From a virus, in the IMG/VR virus record IMGVR_UViG_3300031578_009193, positions 1 to 36,931 of that record: DNA of 36,931 nt; one strand, written 5' to 3'. The position numbers and the translations under genes are program-made. Within the stretch, counting starts at the first letter, position 1; the number at the start of each line of letters is the position of its first letter. Under the pieces are notes generated by a model that ran no database searches, had not been told where the DNA came from, and was given only the letters and a program-made list of their open reading frames with translations. Positions 1 to 36,931 of the stretch are shown in pieces.

Positions 1-742
1 GTGAGGTAATCTGGGTTCCGGTACGAAAACCCGCAGCCGGCTTCACGAGGAACCGATCGACGATGTTGGGATCGTCGCTCGACATTGCGATGCCGTTCTT
101 GGTTCCACAATCATCATCGAGAATGAGCTGATCGCCCATGTTGTTGACGAGGATCTTCGAAAAGTCTCCCGGCTCCGTGATGGCCAGGTTGGCTGCGATC
201 AGGTTGTTCCTGGATTCCATGCTGGCTGCGAAGTGGTCACTCGGCGGGAGCCCTTCGCTATAGCTCTTTCGGATCATCCACGGGATCGCGTCGCCTTCGG
301 CAGTGCGTGCTGCAATAGGGGACATGAAGGAGCGCATCAGCTGGATGGGCTTTCCACGCGTGCCCGACTGTACCATCATCCGCTGCGTTCCACCGAATTT
401 CTCGGTGGCCTTCATCATCTTGTCTTGTGCGTCGAGGATGATCGTACGGCGCTCGGTTGCGCTGTCTGTCTTTTTCAGCTTCGCCAGTGCGGGATGGAGG
501 ACGGCGTCACGCCGCTTGTAGTCCGGCGTGATGTCGTCGAGCGTGATGGAAGCCCCTTCGGCTGTGGCGATATCGTGGCCGAGCTGGCGGATATGATCCA
601 TCGTTTTCGCAGCAAGAGCGGGGTCTCGCCGTGCGAGCGTGTAGAGCCGCTTGTTCAATGACCGAGAATCGAGAGCTTCGTTTGACTGGAGGTCTCTCGG
701 GAGTGCTCGGTTGACGAGATGCTGGCCGAAGGTTTGCGGCAT
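1..742 (-). CDS. RNA polymerase beta' subunit, C-terminal part (partial, runs off window start)
   Basis: Second half of the largest subunit of a bacterial-type multisubunit RNA polymerase. The reading frame is open from an ATG at 742 to base 1, giving 247 residues. The segment TFGQHLVNRALP and then LNKRLY...QLGHDIATAEGASITLDDI matches the beta' stretch after the active-site domain (E. coli TVGRAIL...LNKK...GFKYATRAGASIGIDDM). QSGTRGKPIQLM corresponds to SGARG-xx-QIRQL. The following IPWMIRKSYSEGL and ESRNNLIAANLAITEPGDFS align with the PI-x-NFREGL and trigger-loop region, and DDDCGTKNGI with the DCGT motif. It starts about where the beta' portion of the gene at 5134-9564 stops, so the two polypeptides together should make one beta'. 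The stop of the preceding gene is only 3 nt upstream and no Shine-Dalgarno is visible, so translation is probably coupled. The true C-terminus lies outside the window. Confidence 0.9.
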   Translation of the reverse strand, partial: MPQTFGQHLVNRALPRDLQSNEALDSRSLNKRLYTLARRDPALAAKTMDHIRQLGHDIATAEGASITLDDITPDYKRRDAVLHPALAKLKKTDSATERRTIILDAQDKMMKATEKFGGTQRMMVQSGTRGKPIQLMRSFMSPIAARTAEGDAIPWMIRKSYSEGLPPSDHFAASMESRNNLIAANLAITEPGDFSKILVNNMGDQLILDDDCGTKNGIAMSSDDPNIVDRFLVKPAAGFRTGTQITS

Positions 743-745
743 GCG

Positions 746-1168
746 CTAGTAGCCAAACTGGCTGTTCGAGGTGCCCGGGTTGTCGCCGCCGAACATCGCG
801 CCGCCGGCGGCGAGACCGCCGAGTCCTGCGGTGGCAGCCTGCTGCCCGGAACTCATACCACTCCACATATTTCGCAAGCCGCCGCCCGCGTCGCGTGCTC
901 CGGTGCGGAGGGCGGTTCCGGTTCCCTGCTGGGACAGCCCGCGGGCAGACTGGACGCCACTGCGGAGCGCGCCGTAGGTTCCCTTGCCCAGCGTCTTGCC
1001 GAGACCGAGGCCAGCTTTCCCTGCACCCAGGAGCCCCTGTCCCAGCGCGCCCCAGAACGCCAGCTTCTCCAGGTCGATGCCCATCTCCTGGGCCTCCTTG
1101 AGCAGCTGCGCGGCGTTGCCGTCGTTGAGAGCTTTCTGGATACCCATCTGATATGCGTGCTTGAGCAT
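746..1168 (-). CDS. Small Gly/Ala-rich protein with MLK-AYQ-G N-terminal motif
   Basis: A 140-aa protein of unknown function. The first 14 residues (MLKHAYQMGIQKAL) match the N-termini of the genes at 1178-1453 and 32219-32695. After a helical segment (to about residue 45) comes a Gly/Ala-rich region with alternating small residues (GALGQGLLGAGKAGLGLG, later AATAGLGGLAAGGAMFGG), which could form glycine-zipper helices or a flexible virion protein. It sits between another MLK protein and the beta' C-terminal gene, with stop and start codons nearly touching. The Shine-Dalgarno AGGAGA overlaps the stop codon of the gene upstream. I infer a minor virion component, because the related protein at 32219-32695 lies among probable head genes. 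No catalytic motif is visible. Confidence 0.75.
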   Translation of the reverse strand: MLKHAYQMGIQKALNDGNAAQLLKEAQEMGIDLEKLAFWGALGQGLLGAGKAGLGLGKTLGKGTYGALRSGVQSARGLSQQGTGTALRTGARDAGGGLRNMWSGMSSGQQAATAGLGGLAAGGAMFGGDNPGTSNSQFGY

Positions 1169-1177
1169 CGTGTTCTC

Positions 1178-1453
1178 CTAGATGCTGGTGCTGCCAGGAC
1201 CGCGAATGTCGATCCCGAGGTTCGAGAGCGTGTCGTTTCCGAAGCTCTCGGTGCTTGAGTTGCTGAAGGAAGAATCCTTCTTCGGTTTCCCGATGGGTTC
1301 CTGGTACTCGTCTTCGGTACCTGAAGCGTCTTCGTCTCCTGCCTCGATCTGGAAGAGCGTGGCCAGCTGCTCCGCGGGATTGGCGTTCGATGGATCGAGG
1401 CCTGCCTCTTCCATTGCGATCTTTACGCCAAGCTGGTAGGCGAACTTGAGCAT
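1178..1453 (-). CDS. Small acidic protein with MLK-AYQ-G N-terminal motif
   Basis: A 91-aa protein of unknown function, read from an ATG whose A is the last base of the TGA stop of the upstream membrane-protein gene (TGATG coupling). A longer open frame exists upstream, but its Arg-rich translation is the shadow of that gene. The N-terminus MLKFAYQLGVKIAMEEAGL is a variant of the motif at 746-1168 and 32219-32695. The rest is acidic and low-complexity (DEDASGTEDEYQEP, then a Ser-rich tail), so probably disordered beyond the first helix. The shared N-terminus with a divergent remainder suggests a short docking or sorting helix; this is inference. Confidence 0.7.
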   Translation of the reverse strand: MLKFAYQLGVKIAMEEAGLDPSNANPAEQLATLFQIEAGDEDASGTEDEYQEPIGKPKKDSSFSNSSTESFGNDTLSNLGIDIRGPGSTSI

Positions 1454-2077: not shown

Positions 2078-5000
2078 CTACTTCTGCTGCGGATTCAAGC
2101 GTTTGAAGCCCCACTGGTTCTCGTTGGTCCGAAACAGCACGAGGGGCTCGCCCTCGGGACCCTGGAAGTGGATCTTGTCGGCCGCTGCGCGGACTTGTGT
2201 TGGGACGTCGTGGAGGAGCTCGACATCGCCTGCGCCGTAGCCTTCCGGGATGTTGCCGCTGAAGTTGCGGGCGTACTCCTCGGTGTGCGTCGGCTGCTGT
2301 ATGGCGCGGAGCATCCGGTCCTCGACGGTCGGGTACCGTCCCTTGGGCACGGCCCACGAGTGCGCCTGCTGCGTCGCGGGGTCGACGAGGCGGACGTCGT
2401 AGTGCGGCCCGGCGCGCTGAGCGTTGTGCTGCTGGGTGGCCAGGCGCCACGCCGCGTCCTGGATATCGGGGATGTCTGCGATCTCGCGCTCGGCCGGGAT
2501 GCCCGGGGCAAACTCTTCGGCTGCGGCCTTGATCTGCTCGACCTTCTTGGACTGCAACACTTCAGTGCCGGGGATCTCTCGGAAGTCCTTGAGAGCCGGC
2601 CGGAAGGAGTTGCGCATGGAGGCCGCTTCACGTCGGAGGTGCTCCTCGGATTCGAGGCCCTTCCCCAATTCTCGGGAGACGTACTGCTCGAGGGTGCGCG
2701 CTTCTCCGGGGTCAACAAGGATACGCCGGTGTGGCTCGAGGTCTTTCCTCTCCAGGTCGAGTGCCTGATATCCATCTATGATGTGAGGCTCTTCTCTTCC
2801 CAAGGCCCCCAGCATCGCGGCTGTCTGCACTTCCTTGAGTCTGTCCCGGGCGGCGTACATCTCTCTTTTCGTACGCTCCGCTTGTTGCGCGGTCGGACCC
2901 TTCCGCCATTCATCAGTGGCGTCGTACATCTTCTGAAGAGCGTCCTTCCGTACCGGATCGTCATCCATGGAGTACACTGGCAGGCCGGTTTGCTTCTGGA
3001 GCTCGTTTACATACGTGGTCTTCCCCGAGCCCGGAGCTCCTGTAACGATCGTGTGCTGCGCCTGCGCTGACTCCTTGATGCGTTCGAGCCGTGACCCGGG
3101 CGGTGCCATCCCGCGATGCAGCACGGTGGCGACACTGGGCCGCTTGCCCTTCAGCACGGCGTAGGCGCGAACCATGTCGGCCTTGTTGTGCAGCGGGACA
3201 TGGTGCGCTGCGCCCGGCGGCAGCTTCATGCCCTTGACCTTCTTCCGGAGAGCCTTGAGGATCGAGGGATTCAGGTCGGGGGCGCGTTCCTTGAGGCGCT
3301 GGGCGGCGTGGTCGGCGGCTTCTTTGACTTTCGTGATGAACTCCGGAGGAATCGTGTACCCCTCGGTCGTCAGCTTGGCGTGTGGGTGCCCCGAGAAGAG
3401 ATACGGGTCTCCCACGCCTTCTGGCATCTCTGTGGGAAGTTCGCGCACGAGATTTTCTGGCGATACCTCTCGGTGGCTGCGTGGCTGCTCTTCCACGATG
3501 TCGGCCTTGGAAACCAGTCCAGCGCGTCGCAACTTGTCGTAGTCGATTTCGTACAGCTGATTGCCGCGTGCATATTCCTGTTGTGCTTGAGGCGAGCCTT
3601 CTCCGATAGGGCTGCGGAGGGAAGATATGCTGGTGGACAGACCATCTAGCTCTGCGTCTGCGCGATCCATGATGTCTTCGGGGGACGCGTCTTCAGGGAG
3701 TTTAGCCAGCAGGTCAGCGCGCTGTCTCCGCCACCGGGACATGATGCCTTCGAGCGCCTCTCCCGACAGAGCTCTTGGCGCGCGCAGACCGTCTTCCAGG
3801 ATCGGCGCGTCCTTGGGCGCGTAGTGATACAGCTTCTCCCCCTTCGCCGATCCTACCTTCTGCCGCAGTGCTTCCAGATCCGGGGCCAGCTCTTTCGGCA
3901 TCCTTTCGGCGTACCACTCCAGGTAGCCTGCACGCTCGTCGGGCGTCATCTCTGCCAGGCGCGCCGAGCGTCGTTTGCTCGTCAGGCGCTTGCGGGCCGC
4001 TGCTTCGCTGTACGGCAACAGCTCGACGTTGGGGTTCGTCTCGAGTGCGTTCAGGACGTTCTTGATCTCCTCGATCTTGCTCGGCGTGACGGCGTTTTCG
4101 TTGATCTGCTCCCATGTCGCTCCGCGTCGCGGTGGGGCTTTGAATCCTTCGCCCGGGAGATCGTACAGGTAGCCTGGCTGATCGTACACATCCTGGATGG
4201 CGCCCGGGCGCATCTCCTGCATGACGATTTTCTGGAGACCCTTTTTCCACTTCGTACTTTGTTCGAGATCCCTGTCTCCCCACTTGCCGCCAGAGTAGGT
4301 CATGGCGAAGTCACGGGACGGGGCGCCGAAGACGGCCTTGGGGATTCGGGGATCGCCGTGCAGATCGCGCGGTTCGAGGACGTCGAGCTTCTCGGGGGAG
4401 CCGTGGTAGAGCGTCTCGGCCGCCTGCTTCACCGCCTTCGCCATCGTGAAGTCCGTCCGCTTCGCGCTCGGCAAGTCCTTGAGCTTCACCGGCATCGAGA
4501 CCAGGCCCGTCTCGACGTTCAGGCTGAACGGTGCGCGGATGGAACCCTTGTTCTTGAGCGGAGACATGTCGAGACGGACCTGGTCCTTGTCGGCCACGCC
4601 GAAGGTCACGTCGTCGCGCTGCGCGATCCCGTGCAGGATCTGCTTGGTCTTCTTGCGCGCGGCGTTGACGTCCATCGGGCTGGCCAGGTTACCCTGCACA
4701 TAGAAACCACGCCCGCCGGAAAAGCGCACGTCGACCGACTTGACGTCGGGGTGCGTCTCCATCGTGCGCGCCACGGTCTCGGCGATGGTCTTGGTCTGGC
4801 GCCAGGGCACGTTTTCCTGTGGGTCGATGTCGGCGACGAGGGCGGAAACGCGGGGACCGAAGGTCTGGTGAACTTCACTCATCCGCACCTGGTTCAGATC
4901 CGCGAGGCGCTGCGCGTTCATCCGAATCAGATTGCCCTTGGGATCTTTTCTTCGAAGCACAACGCGGTTCGGGTCGAAGCTCTGCCGGATGATCGTGGCG

Positions 5001-5134
5001 CGTCCCTTGACGGCGTCGAGCAGATGGTTCTGCACCTTCGGGTTGGCGTAGTAGTCGTGGACCTGCTGCTTTGTCAGCGTCGCGTTCGGCGCATCGACGA
5101 TGACCTCGTCCCAGCGCGCGGGGTCCTTGGCCAT
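2078..5134 (-). CDS. LigD-like multidomain DNA-repair protein: polymerase/primase, ART-like region, P-loop kinase, 3'-phosphoesterase
   Basis: A 1018-aa fusion. An upstream in-frame start at 5173 exists, but I chose the ATG at 5134: it overlaps the stop of the RNA polymerase gene by one base and has GAGGAA about 9 nt upstream. Residues about 95-235 form an archaeo-eukaryotic primase/LigD-Pol domain: LVADIDPQENVPW (D102, D104), FSGGRGFYV (usual His replaced by Tyr), then VRLDMS and IRAPFSLNVETGLVSMPV. Residues 242-300 (LYHGSP...) and 435-550 (LYHYAP...) resemble ADP-ribosyltransferase-like folds, with low certainty. Residues 699-707 are a Walker A (GAPGSGKTT) followed by YSMDDD, as in polynucleotide-kinase or zeta-toxin P-loops. 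Residues 900-975 match the LigD 3'-phosphoesterase: QQHNAQR, HYDVRL, SWAVPKG, a HxxxY pair and IPEGYGAG, keeping H903, H911, D913, R915, H950 and Y954. No ligase domain is present. The likely role is processing of broken DNA ends. Confidence 0.85.
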   Translation of the reverse strand: MAKDPARWDEVIVDAPNATLTKQQVHDYYANPKVQNHLLDAVKGRATIIRQSFDPNRVVLRRKDPKGNLIRMNAQRLADLNQVRMSEVHQTFGPRVSALVADIDPQENVPWRQTKTIAETVARTMETHPDVKSVDVRFSGGRGFYVQGNLASPMDVNAARKKTKQILHGIAQRDDVTFGVADKDQVRLDMSPLKNKGSIRAPFSLNVETGLVSMPVKLKDLPSAKRTDFTMAKAVKQAAETLYHGSPEKLDVLEPRDLHGDPRIPKAVFGAPSRDFAMTYSGGKWGDRDLEQSTKWKKGLQKIVMQEMRPGAIQDVYDQPGYLYDLPGEGFKAPPRRGATWEQINENAVTPSKIEEIKNVLNALETNPNVELLPYSEAAARKRLTSKRRSARLAEMTPDERAGYLEWYAERMPKELAPDLEALRQKVGSAKGEKLYHYAPKDAPILEDGLRAPRALSGEALEGIMSRWRRQRADLLAKLPEDASPEDIMDRADAELDGLSTSISSLRSPIGEGSPQAQQEYARGNQLYEIDYDKLRRAGLVSKADIVEEQPRSHREVSPENLVRELPTEMPEGVGDPYLFSGHPHAKLTTEGYTIPPEFITKVKEAADHAAQRLKERAPDLNPSILKALRKKVKGMKLPPGAAHHVPLHNKADMVRAYAVLKGKRPSVATVLHRGMAPPGSRLERIKESAQAQHTIVTGAPGSGKTTYVNELQKQTGLPVYSMDDDPVRKDALQKMYDATDEWRKGPTAQQAERTKREMYAARDRLKEVQTAAMLGALGREEPHIIDGYQALDLERKDLEPHRRILVDPGEARTLEQYVSRELGKGLESEEHLRREAASMRNSFRPALKDFREIPGTEVLQSKKVEQIKAAAEEFAPGIPAEREIADIPDIQDAAWRLATQQHNAQRAGPHYDVRLVDPATQQAHSWAVPKGRYPTVEDRMLRAIQQPTHTEEYARNFSGNIPEGYGAGDVELLHDVPTQVRAAADKIHFQGPEGEPLVLFRTNENQWGFKRLNPQQK

Positions 5135-8100
5135 CAGGTGGGTTCCTCGATCGTGTGTGCCGCCGGGTTCCACAAGGTTGCTTGCCGCGTTTTGCGGCTT
5201 TTTGCAGCGCCCTTGAATGACACCGGCGTTCCGAGAGTGATCTCTCCACGATGGTACGCCGTCATCGCGTCTGCCTGATTGTTGAACACTCGGGCCTGCC
5301 CAGTCGGGGACGCAGAGGTCGCCTGGTACACGCCCATCACGGCTTCCTGCTGCGGGGCGGCCTTGGTCAGCGTGAACTTCCGCTGGTCACTGAGCAGCAT
5401 GTTCGGCAGCGTGAGGCGCTTCGCCTCTTCGACTGCCTGCGCTGTCACCGGAACGGTCAAGCTCACCGCATCGCCGTCGAAGTCGCCTGCCTGGATCGGC
5501 GCGAGCGACTCGTGGACACGAATCGTCTTGCCCGGAACGAGCTTCGGGTACGCAGCGAGCATGTTGTAGCGGTAGAGCGACGGCGCGCGATTGACGAACA
5601 GCGGACGCTCCCCCGTCTCCCGAACCAACGACGCACGCGCTGTCGGGTGACGGTCTTCGATCATCGTTTTGGCTTCGGTAGCGCGGAAGCCGCGGCGTAC
5701 GAGGTCTTTCATCACAAATGGAGCGTACATCGACCAGCCGGCATCCTCGGGAAGGCCGACTTCGTCCATAGCCAGCGTCGCATCTGGAGCAATCGTTCCA
5801 CGCCCGCTGACGTCCTGGCGCCGCTTGAGCAGCTTGCCATGGAAAAAGCCTGACTTCGGGGAGCGCCCTGCTCCCGAGATGCGCGCGATGTACCCCTGTA
5901 CGTTGCGGCCTTGGAGCTGCGGGCTCGTCGGCTCGCTGACTCCGTAGAGCGCGCCCATCGATTCGTACAGGTGCTTCCTGGCATCGCGCTGCATGTCGGG
6001 CGGTAGCCCCTTGGTTTTCCTCACCAGGTCGTTAGCGATCATCGTGTCGCGCAACAGGTAGTTCGGATCGGAGATCTGGAGGTTGCCCCCCGTGCCCGGA
6101 ACGATCGGACGGTACACCGGAGGTACGACGGGCACCTTGCTGACGACGTAGGCGTCCTCCGGGCGCATCCCATTTTCCTTGAGTGCGCGGATGTACTTCA
6201 GTTCTTTGACCGCGTTGTTGCGCTTATCGGCCTTCAGCTTCTTCAGTTTGGCGAGCGTCTCGGTCTCACGCTGGTCGAGGTCGATCTTGGACAGCCGCTT
6301 CTGGACACCGGCACCGCCCTCTGCCTGTATGACCTCTTCGAGCTCCTTCTGCTTCATGCCGAGGAAGGTACGAACAGGCCGCTCGAAAATCGGGTTGACC
6401 ATCGGCTCGGACAGCTCAACGTGGCTCCACTTTGTTCCGTTGTTTCCGCCGGTCAGTGCGGGGTCGAAGAAGCCGCCCTGCTCCGGGGTCAGGTCTTTGG
6501 CCTTGACGAAGAGCGGGCGTTTGATGGCACCAGAGGTCACGGCTTCTACGTCCTTGTCCGTGAGTGGACCGACTTGAACGTGGTTGCCGCGCTTGTCCAT
6601 TTTGATGCCGGCGCCGGCGAGCATCGCACCGAACTTGTCGTAGGCAAACGGCGTGCGCAGCGCCGGCGTGGGAAGGCCGAGCTGGTGTGCGCGCCACCAG
6701 GCGTCGTTGCGCTGGCTGCGGAGCGCTGCTGTTTCCTGGACGACGTTGCGAGCGTCGTGGGCAACGAGGGCGTTGAACTCCATGCGACCGATGCCCTTGG
6801 CGCCCTTGGGCCCACCGGCGGACGGCTGCTGATTTACGTCGTAATCATCGACGCCGCGGGCGGAGAAGTTGGTCGCTGTCGTTTTCATCAGCTTTTGCGT
6901 AAACTGTGGACCGACGAGAACTCCCGAAATCTTCTTTCCGGTCTGCGGGTCAGTGATGGTTTCGGTATCCTTGAGGCCGTGCTTCTTCAGCTCGGCCTTG
7001 ACGTAGGCGACGTTGTCACGGTCGGCGAAGTTTTCGATGATGATACGCTTGCCGGTTTTCTCGGCAACGCGTGCCAGGGCGGTTTCGAGAACCTGTGCCG
7101 GGTTAATACGAGTGACAACGCTGGTTGGCGAGACAGCCATGTCGATCGGATTTCCGTTCTCGTCCTGGAGCATCTGGTCGTCGGGGATGATTGCCGATAC
7201 GACGCCCTTGTTGCCGTAGCGACCGGCGAGCTTGTCGCCAATCTTCAGCGGTTCCTCGGTCTTCACGGTCATGCGGATCTTGTTCCCGGCGCGCACGACA
7301 TCGGTAACGACGCCCGGCGTGTCGTGCTCCCAGGTGACACCCGTGTCGCGGTAGGGCTTCACGAGCTTCTTGTGCAACTTGCCGAGCATTCGCGCTTCCG
7401 GCGTGAGCTTCGATTTCTGCACAGACGCGATGAGGAGGTCGCCAGGATTGACACGCATGCCGGGCTTGACCACGCCGTCGTCTCCGAGCTTATTGTACAG
7501 GTCGGGGGCGTACTTGTTGCCGTAGTAGTTGGCGTGGATCTTGGAGTTGACCAGGCTTTCGCTGTCGACCTCGGTCCCCTCCTGGTACATGTGCAGCGAC
7601 GTCAGCTTATTGGCCGCATTCTCGGAAACGACCACCGCGTCGTTGCTGTTCATGCCGCGCATCGACGTGTAGGCGACGCGCAGATTGCGCCCCATCGAAA
7701 GCTGCCCGTCCTTGGCGTAGTGTGATTCAGCCAGCGGCTGTCCAGCTTTTACCTTCTGCCCGCGGCTCACGGTCAGTGTGTCGTTGAGGTACGTCTTCGA
7801 CGCGAGTGGGAAATCAGTGAAGTACGGAACCTTGGTCGGGGGCGCCCCCGTCTTCGTCGGCGTGTCGGGCTTGATGTGCACGTATCCATCCCGGATGGAC
7901 ATTACGGTTCCGCTTACCGGTGCCGTGGGCACGACCATCGCACCTACTTCTTCCTCCATTGACCGGCCGGGCCGGTAGGACGACACCTGGATCATGGGCG
8001 CCTCGCCGCCCTTGAGCGGCAGAGCCTGGGTCATCATCTTCGAACCCATCGTAGCTCGGTTGCCATCGATGCTGTCCAGAAACGGAATCAGATTCGTCGA

Positions 8101-9564
8101 CATGCTGTACATCGCGTGGTGTGTCGGGATCCGATACTTGACGTCTTCCTTGTTCATGGAGCGGATGCGCCCGCCTTCGAGGACGTCGCGTTTTCCGTGT
8201 TTCGAAGCGCCCGGGAATGCGATGGAGGCTTCGGCTGCTTCCGCTATAGGAACGTACTCGATGTGCTTTCCCCGCTGAAGCGGCGTGAAGATGTTCCCCT
8301 CACTGTCGGTGGCGGTGAAGAGAGAGGTGCGCACGTCGATGCCGGCGCGGTGAGACTCCGGCGTGCGCACCGGATCGATGATCGCAGCGTGAGTAGGGTG
8401 CAGGCGCCGTGCCTCGTCGGGCACCGCGCGATCGCTGGCAATGCCACCCTCGCCCATAGACGTGACGCGGACGGCAGAGTCGATGATTTCCACCGGGTTG
8501 ATCTGTGCCGGGTTCCCCGAGAGTGCCGACGTAGAAAGGAAGCGTCGGATGCCGCGGGAAAACGGAGAGGTGCCCAGGGCGCGCTGGATGTCCGGAGTCG
8601 CACCGTAATCGAGGCGACTGAGTGCCTTGCGCTGCAAGTCGCGTGCGTCGAGCTGAATACGCTCCTTGATGAAGTCGTCCGGGCCGAGCAGCTTCTTGAA
8701 CGCCAGGTTGTCGCGCTCGTCGAAGTCTTCGCCAGAGTTGTAAGCCTGGAGCAGCCGCCCCGAGGCTTCGAGAATGGCGTCCGGCGTCACACGGTCGAAA
8801 GACGTCCCGAGCGTTTTCTTCGTGGTGTCGGGGTCGAGCTTCGCACGGTCGTGCGCCTTGCGCACCGCCTCGACGGTGTCCTCTCCGGCGCGCCGCTGCC
8901 CTGGGTGCACCGTCTTTTCGTAGAGCTTTTTGAAGTAGGCGTCCTGCTTCTCACCGAAGGCGGCCTTGTTTTCCCGAACGAGCTGGGGGTTCCACTTCCT
9001 GGCGATCTGGCTGTCGGAGAGGCCCATCTTCCGAAGCACCGGGTAGAGGGGAATCTTGGAAGCGCCGAACTCCATGTTGAACTGGCCCTTGACCGGGTCC
9101 ATGCTCACACGGAAACTCGGTCCGCCGTGGGTGTTGAACTGCGCCTCGAGTTCTTCGTTGCGCTTCTTCCTTGAGTAGACTCCCGGCTTCATTCGCAGCT
9201 GGTTGCTCACCGAGTAGCGGTTCCCGCGGATCACGAAGTTGTCGTGTGCGGTCAGGTGTGGGAGCTGCATCAGCGTGAAGTCGCGTTTCTCTTGCACGAC
9301 CTTCCCGCTCTGGTTGTCGATGAGCTTTACGGTCCCGCGAACGGGCTCAGCCAGAGAGCGCGCACCGAGGATCGCTTTCTTGTAGTCGTCGGGTCCGTAC
9401 TCGGCCGGCTTCACGTTCACGTTCGAGACGGCAACGGTGTAGCGCCGTCCGACAAACGGGAAAACGTCTTTGATTCCCTGCACAGCCTTGTCCCGAATGC
9501 GCTCGCGGCGCACGTCGGCCGAGGTAAATACAGGTCGGAGATCGCTTGGAGTCTTTGCCGCCAT
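5134..9564 (-). CDS. RNA polymerase beta / beta' N-terminal fusion
   Basis: A 1476-aa single chain joining the beta subunit to the first part of beta'. Beta landmarks in order: FVIRGNRYSVSNQLRMKPGV, the LLGPDD-x-IKERI stretch, LSGNPAQINPVEIIDSAVR (fork/rifampicin region), HPTHAAIIDPVRTPE, GMNSNDAVVVSE, KIGDKLAGRYGNKGV and GRMEFNALVAHDA. Beta' then begins with GGFFDPALTGG and VPVVPPVYRPIVPG, passes KRRQDVSGRGTIAPD and LFVNRAPSLYRYN, and carries the metal-binding loop QAGDFDGDAV (canonical NADFDGDQ). It stops soon after, at EEPT, so the rest of beta' must come from the gene at 1-742. The ATG at 9564 has no Shine-Dalgarno; TATACT lies 6 nt before it, so the mRNA may be leaderless. A TTG at 9582 is an alternative start. 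Giant phages such as phiKZ also split their RNAP subunits, but beta fused to half of beta' is unusual. Confidence 0.95.
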   Translation of the reverse strand: MAAKTPSDLRPVFTSADVRRERIRDKAVQGIKDVFPFVGRRYTVAVSNVNVKPAEYGPDDYKKAILGARSLAEPVRGTVKLIDNQSGKVVQEKRDFTLMQLPHLTAHDNFVIRGNRYSVSNQLRMKPGVYSRKKRNEELEAQFNTHGGPSFRVSMDPVKGQFNMEFGASKIPLYPVLRKMGLSDSQIARKWNPQLVRENKAAFGEKQDAYFKKLYEKTVHPGQRRAGEDTVEAVRKAHDRAKLDPDTTKKTLGTSFDRVTPDAILEASGRLLQAYNSGEDFDERDNLAFKKLLGPDDFIKERIQLDARDLQRKALSRLDYGATPDIQRALGTSPFSRGIRRFLSTSALSGNPAQINPVEIIDSAVRVTSMGEGGIASDRAVPDEARRLHPTHAAIIDPVRTPESHRAGIDVRTSLFTATDSEGNIFTPLQRGKHIEYVPIAEAAEASIAFPGASKHGKRDVLEGGRIRSMNKEDVKYRIPTHHAMYSMSTNLIPFLDSIDGNRATMGSKMMTQALPLKGGEAPMIQVSSYRPGRSMEEEVGAMVVPTAPVSGTVMSIRDGYVHIKPDTPTKTGAPPTKVPYFTDFPLASKTYLNDTLTVSRGQKVKAGQPLAESHYAKDGQLSMGRNLRVAYTSMRGMNSNDAVVVSENAANKLTSLHMYQEGTEVDSESLVNSKIHANYYGNKYAPDLYNKLGDDGVVKPGMRVNPGDLLIASVQKSKLTPEARMLGKLHKKLVKPYRDTGVTWEHDTPGVVTDVVRAGNKIRMTVKTEEPLKIGDKLAGRYGNKGVVSAIIPDDQMLQDENGNPIDMAVSPTSVVTRINPAQVLETALARVAEKTGKRIIIENFADRDNVAYVKAELKKHGLKDTETITDPQTGKKISGVLVGPQFTQKLMKTTATNFSARGVDDYDVNQQPSAGGPKGAKGIGRMEFNALVAHDARNVVQETAALRSQRNDAWWRAHQLGLPTPALRTPFAYDKFGAMLAGAGIKMDKRGNHVQVGPLTDKDVEAVTSGAIKRPLFVKAKDLTPEQGGFFDPALTGGNNGTKWSHVELSEPMVNPIFERPVRTFLGMKQKELEEVIQAEGGAGVQKRLSKIDLDQRETETLAKLKKLKADKRNNAVKELKYIRALKENGMRPEDAYVVSKVPVVPPVYRPIVPGTGGNLQISDPNYLLRDTMIANDLVRKTKGLPPDMQRDARKHLYESMGALYGVSEPTSPQLQGRNVQGYIARISGAGRSPKSGFFHGKLLKRRQDVSGRGTIAPDATLAMDEVGLPEDAGWSMYAPFVMKDLVRRGFRATEAKTMIEDRHPTARASLVRETGERPLFVNRAPSLYRYNMLAAYPKLVPGKTIRVHESLAPIQAGDFDGDAVSLTVPVTAQAVEEAKRLTLPNMLLSDQRKFTLTKAAPQQEAVMGVYQATSASPTGQARVFNNQADAMTAYHRGEITLGTPVSFKGAAKSRKTRQATLWNPAAHTIEEPT

Positions 9565-9570
9565 GCCGAA

Positions 9571-9584
9571 AGTATAGGACAAAA
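9571..9584 (-). promoter_or_regulatory. Candidate -10 element for the RNA polymerase block (leaderless start)
   Basis: On the minus strand TCCTATACTTTCGGC runs straight into the ATG at 9564, placing TATACT exactly 6 nt before the start codon. Transcription would then begin at or next to the A of ATG. The same layout occurs before the terminase gene. No good -35 hexamer is visible at 16-18 bp. The core TTTGT-N3-ATACT-TTCGG recurs before the gene at 33702 as TTTGT-N3-ATACT-ATTCGG. Confidence 0.45.
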
Positions 9585-24400: not shown

Positions 24401-24766
24401 GAGCGGAAATGGCTCGTGGTTTTCTGGCCGCGGGCGCTCTCTACCTTGTTGACACGGTCGCCGAAGTTCCGGAACTACACGGGACGACACGGGCGCATCA
24501 AGATGATCGCCGACAATGACCCCCGGGTGGTGCCGCAAAGCACGCTGAAGCGGGAGGGTTTTATCAGGAACTTCGTTCGTCCGCGCATCGGTGCGCGGAT
24601 TGCGCTCAGCAACATTAGCGTCATCGACCTGACCGACACCGTTGACTTTACCCAGAAGAACGATGAACCGGCACACGTGAATGCTGAGCGTCAGGAGTCT
24701 GTTGTGCAAGACTTGGCTACCGAGGTCGGCGCTGGCAAGCCGGACTCCGGGAACTTTGACGTATGA
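21404..24766 (+). CDS. DnaG-type primase fused to a P-loop helicase
   Basis: A 1120-aa bifunctional replication protein starting at GTG. Residues about 45-80 are a CHC2-type zinc finger (GCCIYHQEDSPSFYV and AHCFGGSC), which reads the template for primer synthesis. Residues about 283-340 are a TOPRIM domain: VVEGEFDALAII with the catalytic Glu, and LLPDNDSGG with the acidic pair. A linker of about 350 residues follows. Residues about 705-720 hold a Walker A (LNGETQSGKTTLFQIYGG), with VMMDEFEEND as Walker B (about 765) and an RNRP-like CPVTIGG segment, so the C-terminal half is a superfamily 3/AAA-type or primase-associated helicase. Its stop overlaps the polymerase ATG by 4 bp. A TTTAC-N3-GTAAA palindrome lies within it at 23211-23223. 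Confidence 0.9.
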   Translation: MAKKTQAKNVSPQQLSEIWNKISPADWLALLEEHKPGHQWTLRGDSIVGCCIYHQEDSPSFYVNPKRGNAHCFGGSCPKKNVWNPVAFVADVMGISYVQALRTLKNRFGIALPAAYAQNAQQIEDNDKLKRLIAVVMNREFREAVENPDDPNYSYIEESGLIDWFRKRKFPEDVLHRLPIGVMPTYPRLSERLKEIKGGVESRDAAHTYLQEYFAPPGSPPKSEGALVFFYYTSPTTIGRFRIRQPGTSTQYAVDDPYSEDVGYFGLNLYPEHMGDLDNYPLHVVEGEFDALAIIAHQLSGGFNDVCIVATGGSMEANLDVLGGFGFTKMRLLPDNDSGGVGWAKNLMTENELVSSVFSWTDEERGHVKDVDEAVRAYGFEPFYDRVQNKKSYVHNHTWAITQTAQAFETIDEGDVDARNAVVVEFGSALKKDAERDAFLKHVCDEYSISREWVLQGIVPFDTPEGFTQRLHRLLEETYQFLHNATTQQGVRMIKAWSKKRKIVVSFPMDSVTKIHAQLAGDLGDLEQYVAQNLGMPDFLRLRDGPRGRMVARSLSDTLRQLDVHFQKALERAGKIIAEVGNLDEIGQGVHFIRDPEDGTATVYVVNGRTNFFKGTLTDDTITYERLECPVDGEHMFRATDKPWSVNLNSLEDIAESEQHDPKDAYHMVRGIIDRGWKFMHHDLETTFIAADILYTPVSLVFETTVVTDLNGETQSGKTTLFQIYGGDRYPGYRLCEAVTAIQDDYTKAAILFKNAGNSLRVMMDEFEENDMGASRPTKRGNAVRDIRELIRGLAMGKVESIRGTAGGQHISRTLRCPVTIGGIYTMDEPRDLNRYVHIRTKFIRGFPHPIFSIQQRYTVEDMRKLRRAITLCWLGRIPQLRTKFEETRQTFAGGANLPSGMYTRLLDNLLPAATILNFIGEDYIKFVQEFSILKMQEMADQGATVQESEEIWEEVLHTGIPLAHHSRDAEGVSSVSYLLSHGTAHILSQTDLGVYYVPERKWLVVFWPRALSTLLTRSPKFRNYTGRHGRIKMIADNDPRVVPQSTLKREGFIRNFVRPRIGARIALSNISVIDLTDTVDFTQKNDEPAHVNAERQESVVQDLATEVGAGKPDSGNFDV

Positions 24767-27666
24767 GAAAAGGTTCTGAATGCAAAGCGTGCCCGGCGCA
24801 GTATGACCCCTGCCTCTGGCGGGGCCACGGAGACCAACCGGCGCACATCATCGTTGTGGGGCCGTCCCCTTCCGGGTTTTCAATCGGAAAAGGGATGCCG
24901 TTCTTCGGACGGTACGGGCGACTGTTCAAGCAGCTGTTGAACATCGTCCGCGCCCACGACGGTGGCCGATATGTTGAGACCAAGGTGTTCTACACCTACG
25001 CCGCGCGCGTCGGAGCGTACAAGCCGAAGAAAGGCCACATCGAGAGTTGTAACCCGGTACTCATGCGGGAGCTTGATGGGATCGACGGTGTCAACGGTGT
25101 GCCGCCGGTCATTGTTCCGTTGGGTCCGGTAGCCGCAAAAGCCGTGGGGCTCAAGTTTCGCAAGATCGGCAATGTCGTAGGCCGTGAGTTCACACTGCCA
25201 TTCCCTTCGTCTCGGCCAGAGAATATGGATGGGCGCGTGCGGCGCCTGTCCGTGATTCCTCTGCTGTCGATGCAGCACCTTTCAGCGAAGCCCGGCACTT
25301 CCAACGTGGTGGTGTCGGCGCTGCACAAAGCTGTTGGCATTGCACACGGGAACCGACCGAGTGCGATCGACCTCGATGAAGTGACGAAAGACTACGAGTA
25401 TCCCAAGACGCTGGAAGAGGTCGATGACCTGGTCACGCGGATTGTCAACTACTACGACCCGGCGCGCGGACAGGGTTCGCAGGACTGGGCTATCTCTCTT
25501 GACACCGAGACCAATACGCTGAAGCCCTACTCCCATCCGGACCCAAAAATTCTGATGATCTCTGTGGGCTGGGATACTGGGAAAGCGGCGACCATCCTGC
25601 TCGACCATCCGGAGGTTCCGTACGATCCGAAGGAAGCCTGGAAGATCGTCGAGCGCCTTCTCACCTGTCAGAAACCGAAGATCTTCCACAACTGGAAGTT
25701 CGATATGAAGTTCCTCGAGAACGTGTACGGGTACCGGGTAAACCGCGTGGCCTGGGATACGATGCTCGGAGAGCACTACATCGACGAAGACAAGAAGGGC
25801 TTCTACAGCTTGAAGCAGCTGACCCCGCTGTACGCGTCGTCCTATGAAGGCTACGACGATGACCTCCAGGACCTCTTGCGCGGCGAGGAAGACCAGGACG
25901 TCGACGAAGACGAGGACGGGGACGCCGCGGCTACCGTCGCTGATCTTCACCTGAAGAACGACGAAATCCTGGACCGAGAACTCGTGCTGGGATGCCCACC
26001 TGATAGAGACGAATCTCAGTGGCAGACTCTCGTGACTGCCGTCAAGAAGTACGAGGAGATCAAGGAGACGCCGGCCAAGAAGCGGTCGACGTACGAGCAG
26101 GACCAGTTCAAGGAAAAGAAGAAAGAGATCTCTGCGCTTCGCAAGGAGCTGGCGGTCAAAGTGCCGCGCAAGCCGAAGAAGGACGCCGAAGCCAAGAAAG
26201 ACGGTGACGGCGGGTTTGAGAAGATCCCACTGGAGACGATACTGGTCTACGCCGCCGTCGACGCCGACGTGACGCGCATCATCCTTCGTGCGCAGACGAA
26301 CCGCTTGCACCGAACCGACTCCTGGAGCGACGCCCGCGACGTCATGCGGTATCTCTACGTGCCAGGCAGCTACACACTGTCGAACATGGAGTACCGCGGC
26401 TTCACGATGAACATGGAGTATCTCGAAGAGCTCTACACGGATCTCACGGAGCAGATGAACACAGCGAAGGAGGAGATCGCTTCTCGCTTCGACCCGACGC
26501 TCAACCTGAATGCCCCGCAGCAGATCGCGTCCTACATGTCTCGGTTGCAGTTCGACGCCATCCCCGGAGAGGACACGGCGAGTACCAACAAGGATCTGCT
26601 CTCACAGTACGAGGGCATGTACGAGGCGGACGACCCACGCCGCATCTTCGTGACGCAGCTGCTGGCCTACCGAGAAGCGCACAAGGCGCTGAGCACTTAC
26701 ATCAAGCCGTACCGCCGCATGACCAAGGCAGACGGGAAAATCCACTGCCGCTTTCACCTCAACGGAACAGCGACGGGACGACTCTCCAGCGCAGACCCCA
26801 ACCTCCAGAACGTTCCGCTCATCGTGTGCCGGAAGGAGGTCGGCGACGAAGTGCTGCACCCGGGTTTCAATGTGAAGCGTCTGTTCGTGCCGAGCCGTCC
26901 TGACTACATCATCGTTGACTGCGACATCAAGGGCGCTGAGCTCCGCGTGTACACGGCCTATTCGAGAGACGCGGCCATGATCGCAGCGCTCAACAAGGGG
27001 ATGGACGTTCACTCGTTGGTGACATCGAAAGCCTACAAGATGCCCTACGAGGAGGTGCAGGCTCGGAAGGAAGAGCCCGAGATCAAGAAGAAGAGGACCA
27101 ACTGCAAGCGGACGGTGTTCGGTACTTTCTACGGTGCCGGCCCCTACAAGATCATGCAGCAGATTGACAGCACCAAGGAGTACGCCGAGTGGCTCCAGAA
27201 CTTCCTCTTCACGGAGTTCCCCGAGCTGCGGGCCTACGTCAGTGAAGTCGAGCATGAGGTCCGCACCAACCGCGAGGTCAAGACGTTCTTCGGACGGCGC
27301 CGTCGTTTCCAGCTGGCTCACGTCAGCTCGAAGCTGATGAACGACGCCCTCCGTGAAGCTGTGAACTTCAAGATTCAGAGCACCAGCTCCGACCTCGTCG
27401 TCTCCCAGCTGTGTGAGATGGATGAACACTTCGCAGATCTGGAAGCTCGGATGCTCATCACTGTGCACGACAGCATGGTGTTCGAGATGCCCGAGCGAAA
27501 CTTGCACAAGCTGAAGCCGTTCCTCGATCACTGGATCGTTGACCGCGTGAAGGAAAAGTTCGCGTGGCTGCCGGTTCCCTTCCTGTACGATGTGGAAGTC
27601 GGACCGACCTACGGCGACGTCACGAAGCTGGAGAAGTACAATGGCACAGCGCAAAAAGCAGGCTGA
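24763..27666 (+). CDS. DNA polymerase I family enzyme with N-terminal UDG-like domain and 3'-5' exonuclease
   Basis: A 967-aa replicative polymerase. Residues 1-190 resemble the family 4 uracil-DNA glycosylase superfamily: CKACPAQYDPC, VVGPSPSGFSIGKGMPFFG, C96 and VIVPLGPVAAKAVGL. The cysteines may bind Fe-S, but the usual catalytic loop (GEAPG-type) is altered, so activity is uncertain. The proofreading exonuclease has SLDTETNTL (Exo I, about 245), HNWKFDMKFL (Exo II) and YAAVDADVT (Exo III), with a long acidic/Lys-rich insert between II and III. The polymerase has TATGRLSSADPNLQNVP (about 670), motif A VDCDIKGAELRV (about 717), motif B KRTVFGTFYG (about 782) and motif C ITVHDSMVFEMP (about 900). 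It is coupled to the primase gene by ATGA. A T7/SPO1-like replication role fits. Confidence 0.94.
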   Translation: MRKGSECKACPAQYDPCLWRGHGDQPAHIIVVGPSPSGFSIGKGMPFFGRYGRLFKQLLNIVRAHDGGRYVETKVFYTYAARVGAYKPKKGHIESCNPVLMRELDGIDGVNGVPPVIVPLGPVAAKAVGLKFRKIGNVVGREFTLPFPSSRPENMDGRVRRLSVIPLLSMQHLSAKPGTSNVVVSALHKAVGIAHGNRPSAIDLDEVTKDYEYPKTLEEVDDLVTRIVNYYDPARGQGSQDWAISLDTETNTLKPYSHPDPKILMISVGWDTGKAATILLDHPEVPYDPKEAWKIVERLLTCQKPKIFHNWKFDMKFLENVYGYRVNRVAWDTMLGEHYIDEDKKGFYSLKQLTPLYASSYEGYDDDLQDLLRGEEDQDVDEDEDGDAAATVADLHLKNDEILDRELVLGCPPDRDESQWQTLVTAVKKYEEIKETPAKKRSTYEQDQFKEKKKEISALRKELAVKVPRKPKKDAEAKKDGDGGFEKIPLETILVYAAVDADVTRIILRAQTNRLHRTDSWSDARDVMRYLYVPGSYTLSNMEYRGFTMNMEYLEELYTDLTEQMNTAKEEIASRFDPTLNLNAPQQIASYMSRLQFDAIPGEDTASTNKDLLSQYEGMYEADDPRRIFVTQLLAYREAHKALSTYIKPYRRMTKADGKIHCRFHLNGTATGRLSSADPNLQNVPLIVCRKEVGDEVLHPGFNVKRLFVPSRPDYIIVDCDIKGAELRVYTAYSRDAAMIAALNKGMDVHSLVTSKAYKMPYEEVQARKEEPEIKKKRTNCKRTVFGTFYGAGPYKIMQQIDSTKEYAEWLQNFLFTEFPELRAYVSEVEHEVRTNREVKTFFGRRRRFQLAHVSSKLMNDALREAVNFKIQSTSSDLVVSQLCEMDEHFADLEARMLITVHDSMVFEMPERNLHKLKPFLDHWIVDRVKEKFAWLPVPFLYDVEVGPTYGDVTKLEKYNGTAQKAG

Positions 27667-31557: not shown

Positions 31558-32219
31558 CCGAGCGCCGCGATCTCGCGCTTCAGACGACGAGCGCGCTCTT
31601 CGACGTACAGATGGACTGCCGCCAGGTAGCCGATCTGAATGTCGGAGGGCGCCTCGTCGAGCTGAAGTTCGGTGAGCTTTGCTTTGTCCAGCTTGGACCA
31701 TCGCTGCTCGACTTTCGGCTTCAGGTCTCGGTGACCCTGGTTGAGGCGGTCAAGCTCTTCCTGGGCGAACGCGAGCATCTCGGGGGCGACAAGGAAGCCG
31801 GAGCGAAAAAGGCTCACCGCGGCATACTTCGCCGGTTCGTAGTCGAACGATCCTTCCGCCTGAAATTCACGCTGCAAGAAGTAGCTGGCTTCGAACACGG
31901 CCCACGACATCTCGCCCGGACTTGCTTCCTGGAGTGCGTCGGGTGCGGACGGGATGTCGTTGAACGCCATCGACGTGTTCTCGAACACGGCAGCGTCCCA
32001 GTAGAAACTTCGTGTAGCCAGGAGGGTAGTACACGCCAGGAGCTTGTCCCGGTTTTCCAGACCCAGGTCGATGCCAGCATCTTCCAGGTCCATCCAGATC
32101 GTTTCGGGTTCCCATGCTGCGAAGGACGGGCCAAGAACACGCTTGGCTGCTTCGAACACGGCGCTGGCCGTGGCGTCCTCGTCCAGTAGGATGTCCCGGT
32201 AGCGCTTGGCCGTGGGCAT
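31554..32219 (-). CDS. Probable structural or assembly protein, unknown family
   Basis: A 221-aa mostly helical protein. The ATG overlaps the preceding gene's TGA (TGATG). The sequence includes AKRYRDILLDEDATASAVFE, ENRDKLLACTTLLATRSFYW and a C-terminal charged helix (VHLYVEERARRLKREIAALG). No catalytic motif or family is recognised. It is the last gene of a three-gene minus-strand block with a possible head protein first, so a virion or head-assembly role is likely. It is convergent with the AAA gene with no room for a terminator. Confidence 0.7.
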   Translation of the reverse strand: MPTAKRYRDILLDEDATASAVFEAAKRVLGPSFAAWEPETIWMDLEDAGIDLGLENRDKLLACTTLLATRSFYWDAAVFENTSMAFNDIPSAPDALQEASPGEMSWAVFEASYFLQREFQAEGSFDYEPAKYAAVSLFRSGFLVAPEMLAFAQEELDRLNQGHRDLKPKVEQRWSKLDKAKLTELQLDEAPSDIQIGYLAAVHLYVEERARRLKREIAALG

Positions 32220-32695
32220 CAGTACTGCGGAGGCAGATGTCCGCCGTAGCCGCCCTGCATTTCGTAGGGATCCATGGGCATCGCGCCCATCTGAGCACCG
32301 TACGACGGGCTGGGCGGGAAGCCACCACCGCCACCGGCCGACAGGCCCATGGCTCCCTGGGGCATCCCGCCGCCCATGCCGCCGCCACCCATGGCAGCGC
32401 CGAGAAGGCTCTGCATCAGCTGCGGGTCGCTCGTCAGACCCTGAGCGAGGTCACCGGCGCTCTCCAGGAAGCCGGGCTCGTCTTCCTTGAGCAGATGCTT
32501 CCCGCCGAAGTAGCCTCCGGCGCCCAGGGCGCCAGCACCCGCCAGCCCGACACCTGCGGTGAGGCCCTTGTTGGCCTTTGCGAAGTCCAGGGCGCGCCGT
32601 GCGAGGCCCGCCTTGCTGGCTTCCTTGGTCAGACGGTCAACGTCGTGATCGGCCAGGGCCTGCTGAACACCAAGCTGAAAAGCAATCTTGAGCAT
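32219..32695 (-). CDS. Gly/Met/Pro-rich protein with MLK-AFQ-G N-terminal motif
   Basis: A 158-aa protein, ATG 2 nt after the upstream stop. The N-terminus MLKIAFQLGVQQALADHDVD is the third instance of the short motif found at 746-1168 and 1178-1453. A helix and a Gly/Ala hydrophobic segment (LTAGVGLAGAGALGAGGYFG) follow, then a low-complexity Gly/Met/Pro/Tyr tail (AAMGGGGMGGGMPQGAMG and PYEMQGGYGGHLPPQY). The layout most resembles the 140-aa protein at 746-1168. I infer a virion-associated protein; the long frame upstream of this ATG is a shadow. Confidence 0.72.
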   Translation of the reverse strand: MLKIAFQLGVQQALADHDVDRLTKEASKAGLARRALDFAKANKGLTAGVGLAGAGALGAGGYFGGKHLLKEDEPGFLESAGDLAQGLTSDPQLMQSLLGAAMGGGGMGGGMPQGAMGLSAGGGGGFPPSPSYGAQMGAMPMDPYEMQGGYGGHLPPQY

Positions 32696-35293: not shown

Positions 35294-36076
35294 ATGCCCA
35301 CAAGAAATGCGGTCGTCCTGCGCGTCGACCGAACCCTCGCTGGCACCGAGTTCCCCTGGGACCGGGTGTACTTTTTCCGGCGAGACGAGGAGGAACTCCT
35401 CGCCAAGTACTTCCCCTGTTCGTTGGTGACCCCGCTGACCAAGCGCTTCTTGAAACGGCTCAAGAAAGTCGTGGGAGGAACAGCAGAGGCCCGGAAAAAT
35501 AAGGGCGCCACCTCCCACGCATTCCGGCGCAAGGGACAGAAGAAGTTGGAGAAGCGTGCTGAGCGCCGCTCTCCCATCGAAGCGGTTCTCGAGGACCCGC
35601 AGTTGTACGTGGTCCTCGTTCCCATCCTTCACCTTCAGCATCACCGTGGTCGCGGCAACGTTGGTCCGATGTACTTGACGGCACGGCCGCGCATCAAGTC
35701 GCTGTCGCAGCACAAGTCGGACACCGATGAGACGCAGAAGAAGCAGCGCCTCACCAAGGCGGGAAAGCCCTACAAGAAGCCGCCGAACTACAAGTCTCCC
35801 GAAGAGCGTGCGGCCCAGGCTGACGCAAATCTCAAGGCGCTCACCCGAGATTCCATCTGCGCCAAGACGTATTTCATCGTCGAGGGTGAACGCATCGAAC
35901 CGGTTTGCGTCGCATGTCCGAAGAACCTCGAGGCGCTCAATGGGCGCTGCCAGTTCGGGCAGGAGGCCTGCTACGACAACCTCGCGCGTGCGCAGATCAG
36001 TGATTTCCGCCGTGGTCTTCGAGAGTACCGAAAGATCGTTCAGCAGCTCGACAAGGAGAGTCCGTCCGATGAGTAG
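35294..36076 (+). CDS. Cys-containing protein upstream of the reverse transcriptase
   Basis: A 260-aa protein with GGAGAG before its ATG. Residues 1-60 look like a small alpha/beta domain (AVVLRVDRTLAGTEFPWDRV). Residues 65-95 and 135-175 are very basic (KKQRLTKAGKPYKKPPNYKS), suggesting nucleic-acid binding. The C-terminal part has a Cys cluster (CVACPKNLEALNGRC, then EAC) likely to bind zinc. Its stop overlaps the reverse transcriptase start by 8 bp (ATGAGTAG), so the two are translationally coupled and may act together. No family is recognised. Confidence 0.75.
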   Translation: MPTRNAVVLRVDRTLAGTEFPWDRVYFFRRDEEELLAKYFPCSLVTPLTKRFLKRLKKVVGGTAEARKNKGATSHAFRRKGQKKLEKRAERRSPIEAVLEDPQLYVVLVPILHLQHHRGRGNVGPMYLTARPRIKSLSQHKSDTDETQKKQRLTKAGKPYKKPPNYKSPEERAAQADANLKALTRDSICAKTYFIVEGERIEPVCVACPKNLEALNGRCQFGQEACYDNLARAQISDFRRGLREYRKIVQQLDKESPSDE

Positions 36077-36931
36077 CTACCACTCCACGATGATTGACCT
36101 CATCGAGTATCGCGGCGTCAAGCACAGCCTGCCGCTGGCGATCGACGACATGTCCCTAGCCTTCCATCTGGGAATCCACAACCGGACGTTGTGGTTCTTC
36201 ATCTTGGAAAAGAACAAGCTCTACAACACCTTCGACATCGACAAGCGCGGGAAGGGTACGGGCAAGCGGGGAATCCAAGATCCGGACAAGCGTTTGAAGC
36301 GGGCTCAGAAGGTGATGCTCTCCAAGTTCCTGAACCCTATCCCCGTCGGCGAGCACATCGGCGCCTACGTTCCCGGTCGCAGCTGTATGGCCACGGCCCA
36401 GCAGCACGTCGGAAAGGGTGTCATCATTTCGATGGACATCAAGGACTTCTTTCCGAGCGTGAAGCGCGCGATGGTGCGACACTACTTTCGGTCGTTGGGA
36501 TATGCGCACCGTGTGGCCAGCCTGATGGCAGACCTGGTTACCTACAAGAACTTCCTTCCCCAGGGGGCACCGACCTCGGGGATGGTGGCCAACCTGGTGG
36601 CGGACCAGCGCTTTGACCGAACCATCATGCGTGAACTGAAAGAGCTGGGACCGGACTGGGTGTACACCCGGTACTCCGATGACATTGACATCTCGCACCC
36701 GGACAAGCCGACACGCGAGGGCGTCGCAGCCGTTGTGAATCTCGTGCGAGCTCGTGTCAAGGAGGCGGGCTTCACCATCAACGAGAATAAGACGCGGACG
36801 GAGCCCTACTGGAACCGGCAGAAGGTGCTGGGCATCGTGGTCAACGAGAAGCCCAACGTACAGCGCACGGACTACATGCACGTCCGGTGCATGATCCACA
36901 ACTGTATGATGCACGGATTCGCGTCCCAGTG
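36069..36931 (+). CDS. Retron-like reverse transcriptase (partial, runs off window end)
   Basis: 287 residues of an RNA-templated DNA polymerase, still open at the last base. Conserved RT blocks are in order: GAYVPGRS (about 98-105), TAQQH (109-113, like the retron NAxxH element), MDIKDFFPSV (block 3, D123), LPQGAPTSGMVANLV (block 4), YTRYSDDIDIS (block 5 with the catalytic D204/D205), GFTINENKTR (block 6) and VLGIVVN (block 7; retrons usually have VTG). QGAPTS and TRYSDD point to the retron/group II lineage rather than to diversity-generating elements, which carry a different block 4. The thumb and any C-terminal effector are outside the window. There is no space for an msr-msd RNA directly upstream, because the start overlaps the preceding gene. 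Confidence 0.9.
   Translation, partial: MSSYHSTMIDLIEYRGVKHSLPLAIDDMSLAFHLGIHNRTLWFFILEKNKLYNTFDIDKRGKGTGKRGIQDPDKRLKRAQKVMLSKFLNPIPVGEHIGAYVPGRSCMATAQQHVGKGVIISMDIKDFFPSVKRAMVRHYFRSLGYAHRVASLMADLVTYKNFLPQGAPTSGMVANLVADQRFDRTIMRELKELGPDWVYTRYSDDIDISHPDKPTREGVAAVVNLVRARVKEAGFTINENKTRTEPYWNRQKVLGIVVNEKPNVQRTDYMHVRCMIHNCMMHGFASQ

Follow-up and report, generated by a model that had tools for sequence, protein, structure and literature searches.

Bacteria and archaea are known to process DNA ends with LigD-type enzymes. The ribose 2'-OH is contacted by His111 and Thr236 in LigD of Mycobacterium tuberculosis (Mtb) and by His651 and Ser768 in that of Pseudomonas aeruginosa, and Mtb His178, in motif II, binds the triphosphate (PMC7072297, PMC8656161). 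Active-site positions of the 3'-phosphoesterase (PE) domain are taken here from the latter source. The polyvalent proteins of phages include an N4-like virion RNA polymerase (RNAP) fused to an ART domain (Iyer et al. 2017, PMC5512222).

The stretch of DNA analysed here (the window) is a linear virus record of 36.9 kb from IMG/VR, a fragment of a genome of probably ~100-200 kb, and genome-wide absences in it therefore mean little. One of its genes joins a LigD-type polymerase (Prim-Pol, or Pol) domain to a PE domain within a single protein (Table 1). The Pol-PE reading frame starts with an ATG at 5134 and runs for 1018 amino acids without an internal stop, so the originally predicted gene is real; it lies on the minus strand, which had not been named. 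Its start codon and the stop codon of the fused beta-beta' RNAP gene upstream share bases in the sequence TGATG, which bears out the proposed adjacency to RNAP, and Pol-PE is probably co-expressed with this enzyme.

Table 1. Positions in the window of the Pol-PE gene, its modules and seams, and the neighbouring RNA polymerase genes
Feature	Position	Strand	Remarks
Pol-PE CDS with inserted modules	2078..5134	-	1018 aa: Prim-Pol + insert + 3'-phosphoesterase
Fused RNA polymerase beta-beta' (N-terminal part of beta')	5134..9582	-	directly upstream, translationally adjacent
RNA polymerase beta' C-terminal part	2..742	-	runs off contig; homologue of L001:15938-17731 in both position and sequence
LigD-type Prim-Pol domain, residues ~18-222	4469..5083	-	Pfam, PDB profile, AF2, Foldseek, conservation
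Seam KQAA, residues 236-239, Pol/insert border	4418..4429	-	
Module 1, LYHGSP (ART-like), residues ~239-440	3815..4420	-	homologue in G001
Module 2, second ART-like/unknown, residues ~441-605	3320..3814	-	same module in L027, L260
Seam KEAA, residues 604-607	3314..3325	-	
Short spacer/unknown module, residues ~606-688	3071..3319	-	flanked by K-x-[AS]-A seams
Seam KESA, residues 687-690, before kinase	3065..3076	-	
P-loop kinase module, NMP/shikimate-kinase-like, residues ~689-868	2531..3070	-	Pfam, profile and fold searches
Seam KAAA, residues 869-872, insert/PE border	2519..2530	-	
LigD-type 3'-phosphoesterase (PE), residues ~871-1018	2081..2524	-	Pfam, PDB 3p4h/3p43/3n9b, conservation 23/23

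The N-terminal domain belongs to the LigD Prim-Pol type. In a direct Pfam scan of six proteins of the window contig it matches PF21686 (LigD_Prim-Pol) over residues 71-240 with 45 bits against a cut-off of 27.4 (E 1.4e-11), and the protein of one relative (L043) scores 53.6 bits, above the same cut-off. NCBIfam LigD models match the window protein, but far below their equivalog thresholds. A profile built from relatives matches the Mtb and P. aeruginosa LigD Pol domains in PDB (2iru, E 4.5e-5, and 2fao). The AF2 model of the domain is confident (pLDDT mostly 75-97), and Foldseek ranks Mtb LigD Pol first (E 3e-10), then M. smegmatis Prim-PolC (3e-9), with archaeal NHEJ Pol (5dmu) among the top matches and PriS (E 2e-3) and human PrimPol far behind. 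This structural match agrees with the assignment in the original prediction, whose motifs lie at residues 102-104 (DID), 139-145 (SGGRGFY) and 188-202 (LDMS...IRAP).

The presumptive catalytic residues of Prim-Pol are well conserved among 23 sequences, comprising the window protein and 22 relatives. The metal ligands D102, D104 and D189 are invariant, as is S139. The ribose 2'-OH contact positions are retained as H89 (23/23) and S198 (22/23), an equivalence set by hand through motif position, not through structure superposition. Motifs I (DxD), II (SxGxxxH) and III (hhD) are complete in the window protein except that Y145 replaces the motif-II histidine. This residue occupies the position of Mtb His178, at which the family is split between 12 tyrosines and 11 histidines, and in the alignment the change is a family polymorphism. 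The suggestion that it may alter nucleotide choice is not supported, as the site corresponds to the triphosphate-binding position and not to the sugar-selecting His111, retained as H89. Catalytic efficiency is nevertheless uncertain, since half of the family has the motif-II tyrosine and the position of Mtb Arg244 is Asn or His in the Pol-PE family. From the catalytic residues kept in Pol and PE we predict enzymatic competence, and infer a preference of Prim-Pol for ribonucleotides.

The C-terminal domain matches PF13298 (LigD_N PE) over residues 901-973 with 39.3 bits against a cut-off of 31.1 (E 8e-10). All six active-site positions claimed for it are present (H903, H911, D913, R915, H950 and Y954), as are two additional ones, Q901 and S926, and all eight are conserved in 23/23 sequences. 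The relatives' profile matches the archaeal PE structures 3p4h (8e-10) and 3p43 (1e-8), from Korarchaeum and Methanosarcina, and also P. aeruginosa LigD PE. The AF2 model is confident here as well, and a Foldseek match to P. aeruginosa LigD PE (6e-6) shows the expected structural likeness to LigD phosphoesterase; archaeal 3p43 is matched with a TM of 0.75. Neither Pfam nor NCBIfam reveals an ATP-dependent ligase domain in the window protein. Pfam, profile and fold searches and the catalytic residues thus uphold the prediction of a phage protein that unites a LigD-type Pol with a LigD-type PE and lacks a ligase.

Close relatives of the full-length protein are found neither in IMG/VR, searched with a single-sequence pattern, nor in GenBank phages. 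After these direct protein searches failed, relatives were reached through an alignment of the neighbouring RNAP, which is 68% identical to that of G001, 43-45% to those of G002 and G003, and 35% to that of Salmonella phage Arash. Many related phages encode a compact Pol-PE directly after RNAP. The gene follows that of RNAP in 34/34 loci (22 non-redundant proteins), its ORF beginning between 183 nt before and 108 nt after the end of the RNAP ORF, or at 722 nt in one locus. Pol and PE are separated by 10-19 amino acids in all 22 non-redundant relatives and by ~630 more in the window protein. The alignment places the additional residues between '...MAKAVKQAA' and 'EEFAPGIP', and the EFAPGIP linker is conserved in the family. 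Because 22 relatives have a compact Pol-PE at the same place, the ART-like segments and the P-loop kinase, judged by alignment, are an in-frame insertion rather than an element of a design for end healing.

Pol-PE may be dispensable, since the 122.5-kb contig of G001, the closest relative by RNAP, shows none. The family has no match in PHROGs or GenBank phages. One pattern-based scan of cellular genomes found no Pol-PE of this kind, only short archaeal matches in a PriS-like motif that, by their taxa and motif, are probably PriS. A BFVD fold search returned only distant phage primases and unrelated proteins, and PADLOC only generic ATPase matches. An open-access literature search, incomplete in coverage, found no phage LigD Pol-PE.

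The inserted modules have homologues in other mosaic proteins of related phages. Module 1 shares ~50% identity with a separate, tagged YHGSP-Nudix protein in G001, and scanning viral sequences for the YHGSP module yielded just two further copies. An ART-like nature of residues 239-440 is a reasonable reading of the LYHGSP motif and the relatives in phage mosaics; the ART evidence is confined to the YHGS motif, and the AF2 model of residues 239-605 is mostly of low confidence. Module 2 and the kinase recur in a polyprotein of G003 (L027, >1500 aa) that has Nudix, several kinase modules and, as judged by eye, a PAP2-like stretch; within RNAP beta of L260 they also make up an in-frame insertion of 550 aa. 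In L064, YHGSP and kinase modules follow RNAP beta'; this ORF (L064:18489-22679) fuses the C-terminal part of beta' to YHGSP, acylphosphatase, kinase and DUF5661 modules. In-frame cassettes inside RNAP beta are seen in L260:1143-7409, L058 and L079/L082/L090, at q580-585 and q258-262, and intein-like insertions occur in RNAP of many relatives at q~413, q786 and q~1371.

The kinase module contains a P-loop at residues 696-790 that resembles AAA_17/18/33 at E 1e-5 to 5e-4, below cut-off. Profile and fold searches place it near adenylate, UMP-CMP and shikimate kinases, and Pnk is absent from its profile matches and top 50 fold matches. In 5'-polynucleotide kinases, Walker A is followed by a conserved D-x-x-R (D35 and R38 in T4 Pnk). 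In the module's family an Asp downstream of Walker A hardly varies, but the Arg at +3 is not conserved; ART2 rows, which were misaligned with the kinase, were left out of a second kinase model. With the Asp kept, the Arg not, and NMP and shikimate kinases as neighbours, a 5'-polynucleotide kinase is unsupported, and the resemblance of Walker A and YSMDDD to 5'-kinases that had been noted is weak.

Four copies of K-x-[AS]-A occur in the 1018 residues, each at a module border, and K-x-[AS], with module motifs as anchors, lies at most 25 aa upstream of kinase or YHGSP modules in 13/14 cases versus a background of 24%. Similar cassettes lie within RNAP beta and are appended to beta', frequently at K-x-[A/S] seams. 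Since the modules counted are partly homologous and K-x-A-A makes ordinary helical linkers, the pattern is no more than a hint, and could reflect either protease sites or recombination joints. Searches with the PF03420 and PF04586 models found no prohead protease. A recurrent N-terminal tag (~M..AYxxGxxxAxxxAGLxKxA) is present on 12 of 123 selected G001 ORFs (~1% expected, p 4e-9), L013-L019 among them, and on the window proteins at 746-1168 (-), 1178-1453 (-) and 32219-32695 (-). The tag is also enriched in G003, and not clearly in other genomes tested; it is possibly a virion-targeting propeptide. A tag-like stretch follows PE in relatives of the window protein.

Other components of LigD pathways were sought in the clade. 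A PF13298 genome profile search missed even the window's own PE, so its negatives are not trusted alone, and six-frame HMM searches were run on the relatives' genomes. Ku (PF02735) was found in none of 12 related phage records, nine of them Pol-PE genomes, in a search of limited sensitivity that covered the relatives only; within that scope, the earlier observation of no visible Ku holds. At similarly limited sensitivity, no ATP-dependent ligase was detected in the nine Pol-PE genomes, in a search of relatives only, nor any NAD-dependent ligase, in a search that included the window. The pathway would thus need a host ligase. In sister phages (L138-L143), a gene a short way downstream of this RNAP gene fuses PE with an ATP-dependent ligase that carries KxDG, so LigD parts are reshuffled there. 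Elsewhere, PE is joined to SNF2 helicase, GNAT and pyrophosphatase modules, and single ORFs encode PE-SNF2 (L074:16374-18359) and PE-ligase-pyrophosphatase-SNF2 (L146:7998-11993). The window contig separately encodes a DnaG-type primase and PolA, which are conserved in the clade. The PolA (24763-27666, +) has an N-terminal uracil-DNA-glycosylase-superfamily domain (PF03167, E 1e-9). A reverse-transcriptase-like protein (35727-36929, +; YSDD; phrog_2825, E 5e-46, and phrog_1423) is kept in most relatives examined.

The anatomy, homology, catalytic residues and synteny of Pol-PE, and the position of the insertion, are read from sequence, and we consider it reasonably probable that this phage enzyme heals 3' ends and short gaps and carries an unrelated, polyvalent-type cassette inserted in frame. 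Its core is, in effect, a phage-encoded LigD that lacks the ligase. Prim-Pol would add a few nucleotides, probably ribonucleotides, PE would trim 3'-ribonucleotides and 3'-phosphates to leave a 3'-OH, and another ligase, presumably the host's, would seal it. The LYHGSP ART-like, second ART-like and NMP-kinase-like modules, inserted in frame between the two domains, probably come from a pool that this clade also splices into other proteins, including RNAP; host takeover or counter-defence would be their most likely role, not end healing. The original prediction recognised a real and unusual protein but misread the insertion as part of one enzyme. A complete end-healing enzyme, in which 5'-kinase, 3'-phosphoesterase and gap-filling polymerase act together on double-strand breaks, could draw on the Walker A and subsequent acidic DDD at about 695-727 and on a weak PHROG polynucleotide kinase match (E 0.005). 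We regard it as very unlikely, because the ~630-aa insertion with its kinase and ART-like segments is missing from 22/22 non-redundant relatives, the same kinase family accompanies ART2, InPase, Nudix and RNAP domains and not Pol-PE, and its profile and structural neighbours are NMP and shikimate kinases. That the insert is a metagenome assembly chimera seems scarcely credible: the architecture is known from a single contig, but the insert is in frame at both ends, contains no stop and lies exactly at a domain border, its nearest YHGSP homologue sits in the nearest relative phage, and cassette insertions recur in RNAP.

Prim-Pol might alternatively make primers in replication or repriming, with PE trimming the primer ends. 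The PriS-like motif IRAPFSLN.ETGL, the archaeal PriS motif matches in the genome scan, and weak matches of PriS models to a relative (TIGR00335, 1.7e-5; PF01896, 0.005) are consistent with this reading, but the fold is far closer to LigD Pol than to PriS. The conserved DnaG-type primase and PolA make a purely replicative role less likely, and priming, raised in the original prediction, is unlikely as the main function. A possibility that deserves consideration, though we lean against it, is that the whole gene encodes a polyvalent, virion-delivered protein, whose Pol-PE protects or circularises the incoming genome, and whose cassette modifies host targets, possibly after cleavage at the seams. 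This proposal overlaps with 3'-end healing by a cassette-bearing Pol-PE, and adds delivery and processing. The four seams, each at a module border, their frequency before kinase and YHGSP modules, the tag that a related YHGSP protein shares with a dozen G001 proteins, and the tag-like stretch after PE in relatives favour it. Against it, the prohead protease models found nothing, the window protein itself has no tag, and the seam motif suits ordinary helical linkers before module starts that, being partly homologous, are not independent.

A bolder and rather doubtful reading is that the clade, phages with a fused beta-beta' RNAP, broke LigD into interchangeable Pol-PE and PE-Lig halves that stay behind the RNAP gene, and that effector cassettes in Pol-PE and RNAP are cut free by a phage protease at K-x-[A/S] seams. 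Essential replication and transcription proteins would then double as carriers of host-directed effectors, with ART-like, kinase and pyrophosphatase-type cassettes spliced into Pol-PE and RNAP beta/beta'. If core enzymes do carry effector cassettes in frame, phages would have a new means of carrying, and perhaps delivering, effectors. The phage lineage described here bears the Pol-PE half and the PE-ligase half in alternative genes downstream of the RNAP that it encodes. Healing of 3' ends by Pol-PE offers a testable case of such a phage-encoded activity, possibly directed against host nucleases, and the compact proteins are small enzymes for the study of cooperation between Pol and PE.

The window protein is a domain mosaic, as are polyvalent proteins, and virion delivery is a candidate feature only. 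Both are multidomain and combine primase, ART-like and other enzymatic modules, but the part of Iyer et al. (2017, PMC5512222) used here does not describe LigD-type Pol, LigD PE, NMP-kinase modules or insertion into a core enzyme. Bacterial LigD of the Mycobacterium type (Pol-PE-Lig) shares both domain families with the phage protein, and also the order of Pol and PE, all PE active-site residues, the DxD...D of Pol and the ribose-contacting His and Ser. It differs in that the phage protein has no ligase domain, no Ku was found in the records searched, identity is 16-30%, and 630 residues are inserted between phage Pol and PE. Among archaeal stand-alone PE proteins (3p4h, 3p43) are the closest matches to the phage PE in sequence and one of its top matches in fold, and for Pol the top fold matches include the NHEJ Pol of Methanocella (5dmu), but Pol and PE are separate genes in archaea and fused in the phage. 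The PE-ATP-ligase of sister phages L138-L143 has a homologous PE and is encoded downstream of the same RNAP gene, although it carries a ligase instead of Pol and lies ~0.4-1.5 kb downstream, whereas Pol-PE abuts RNAP.
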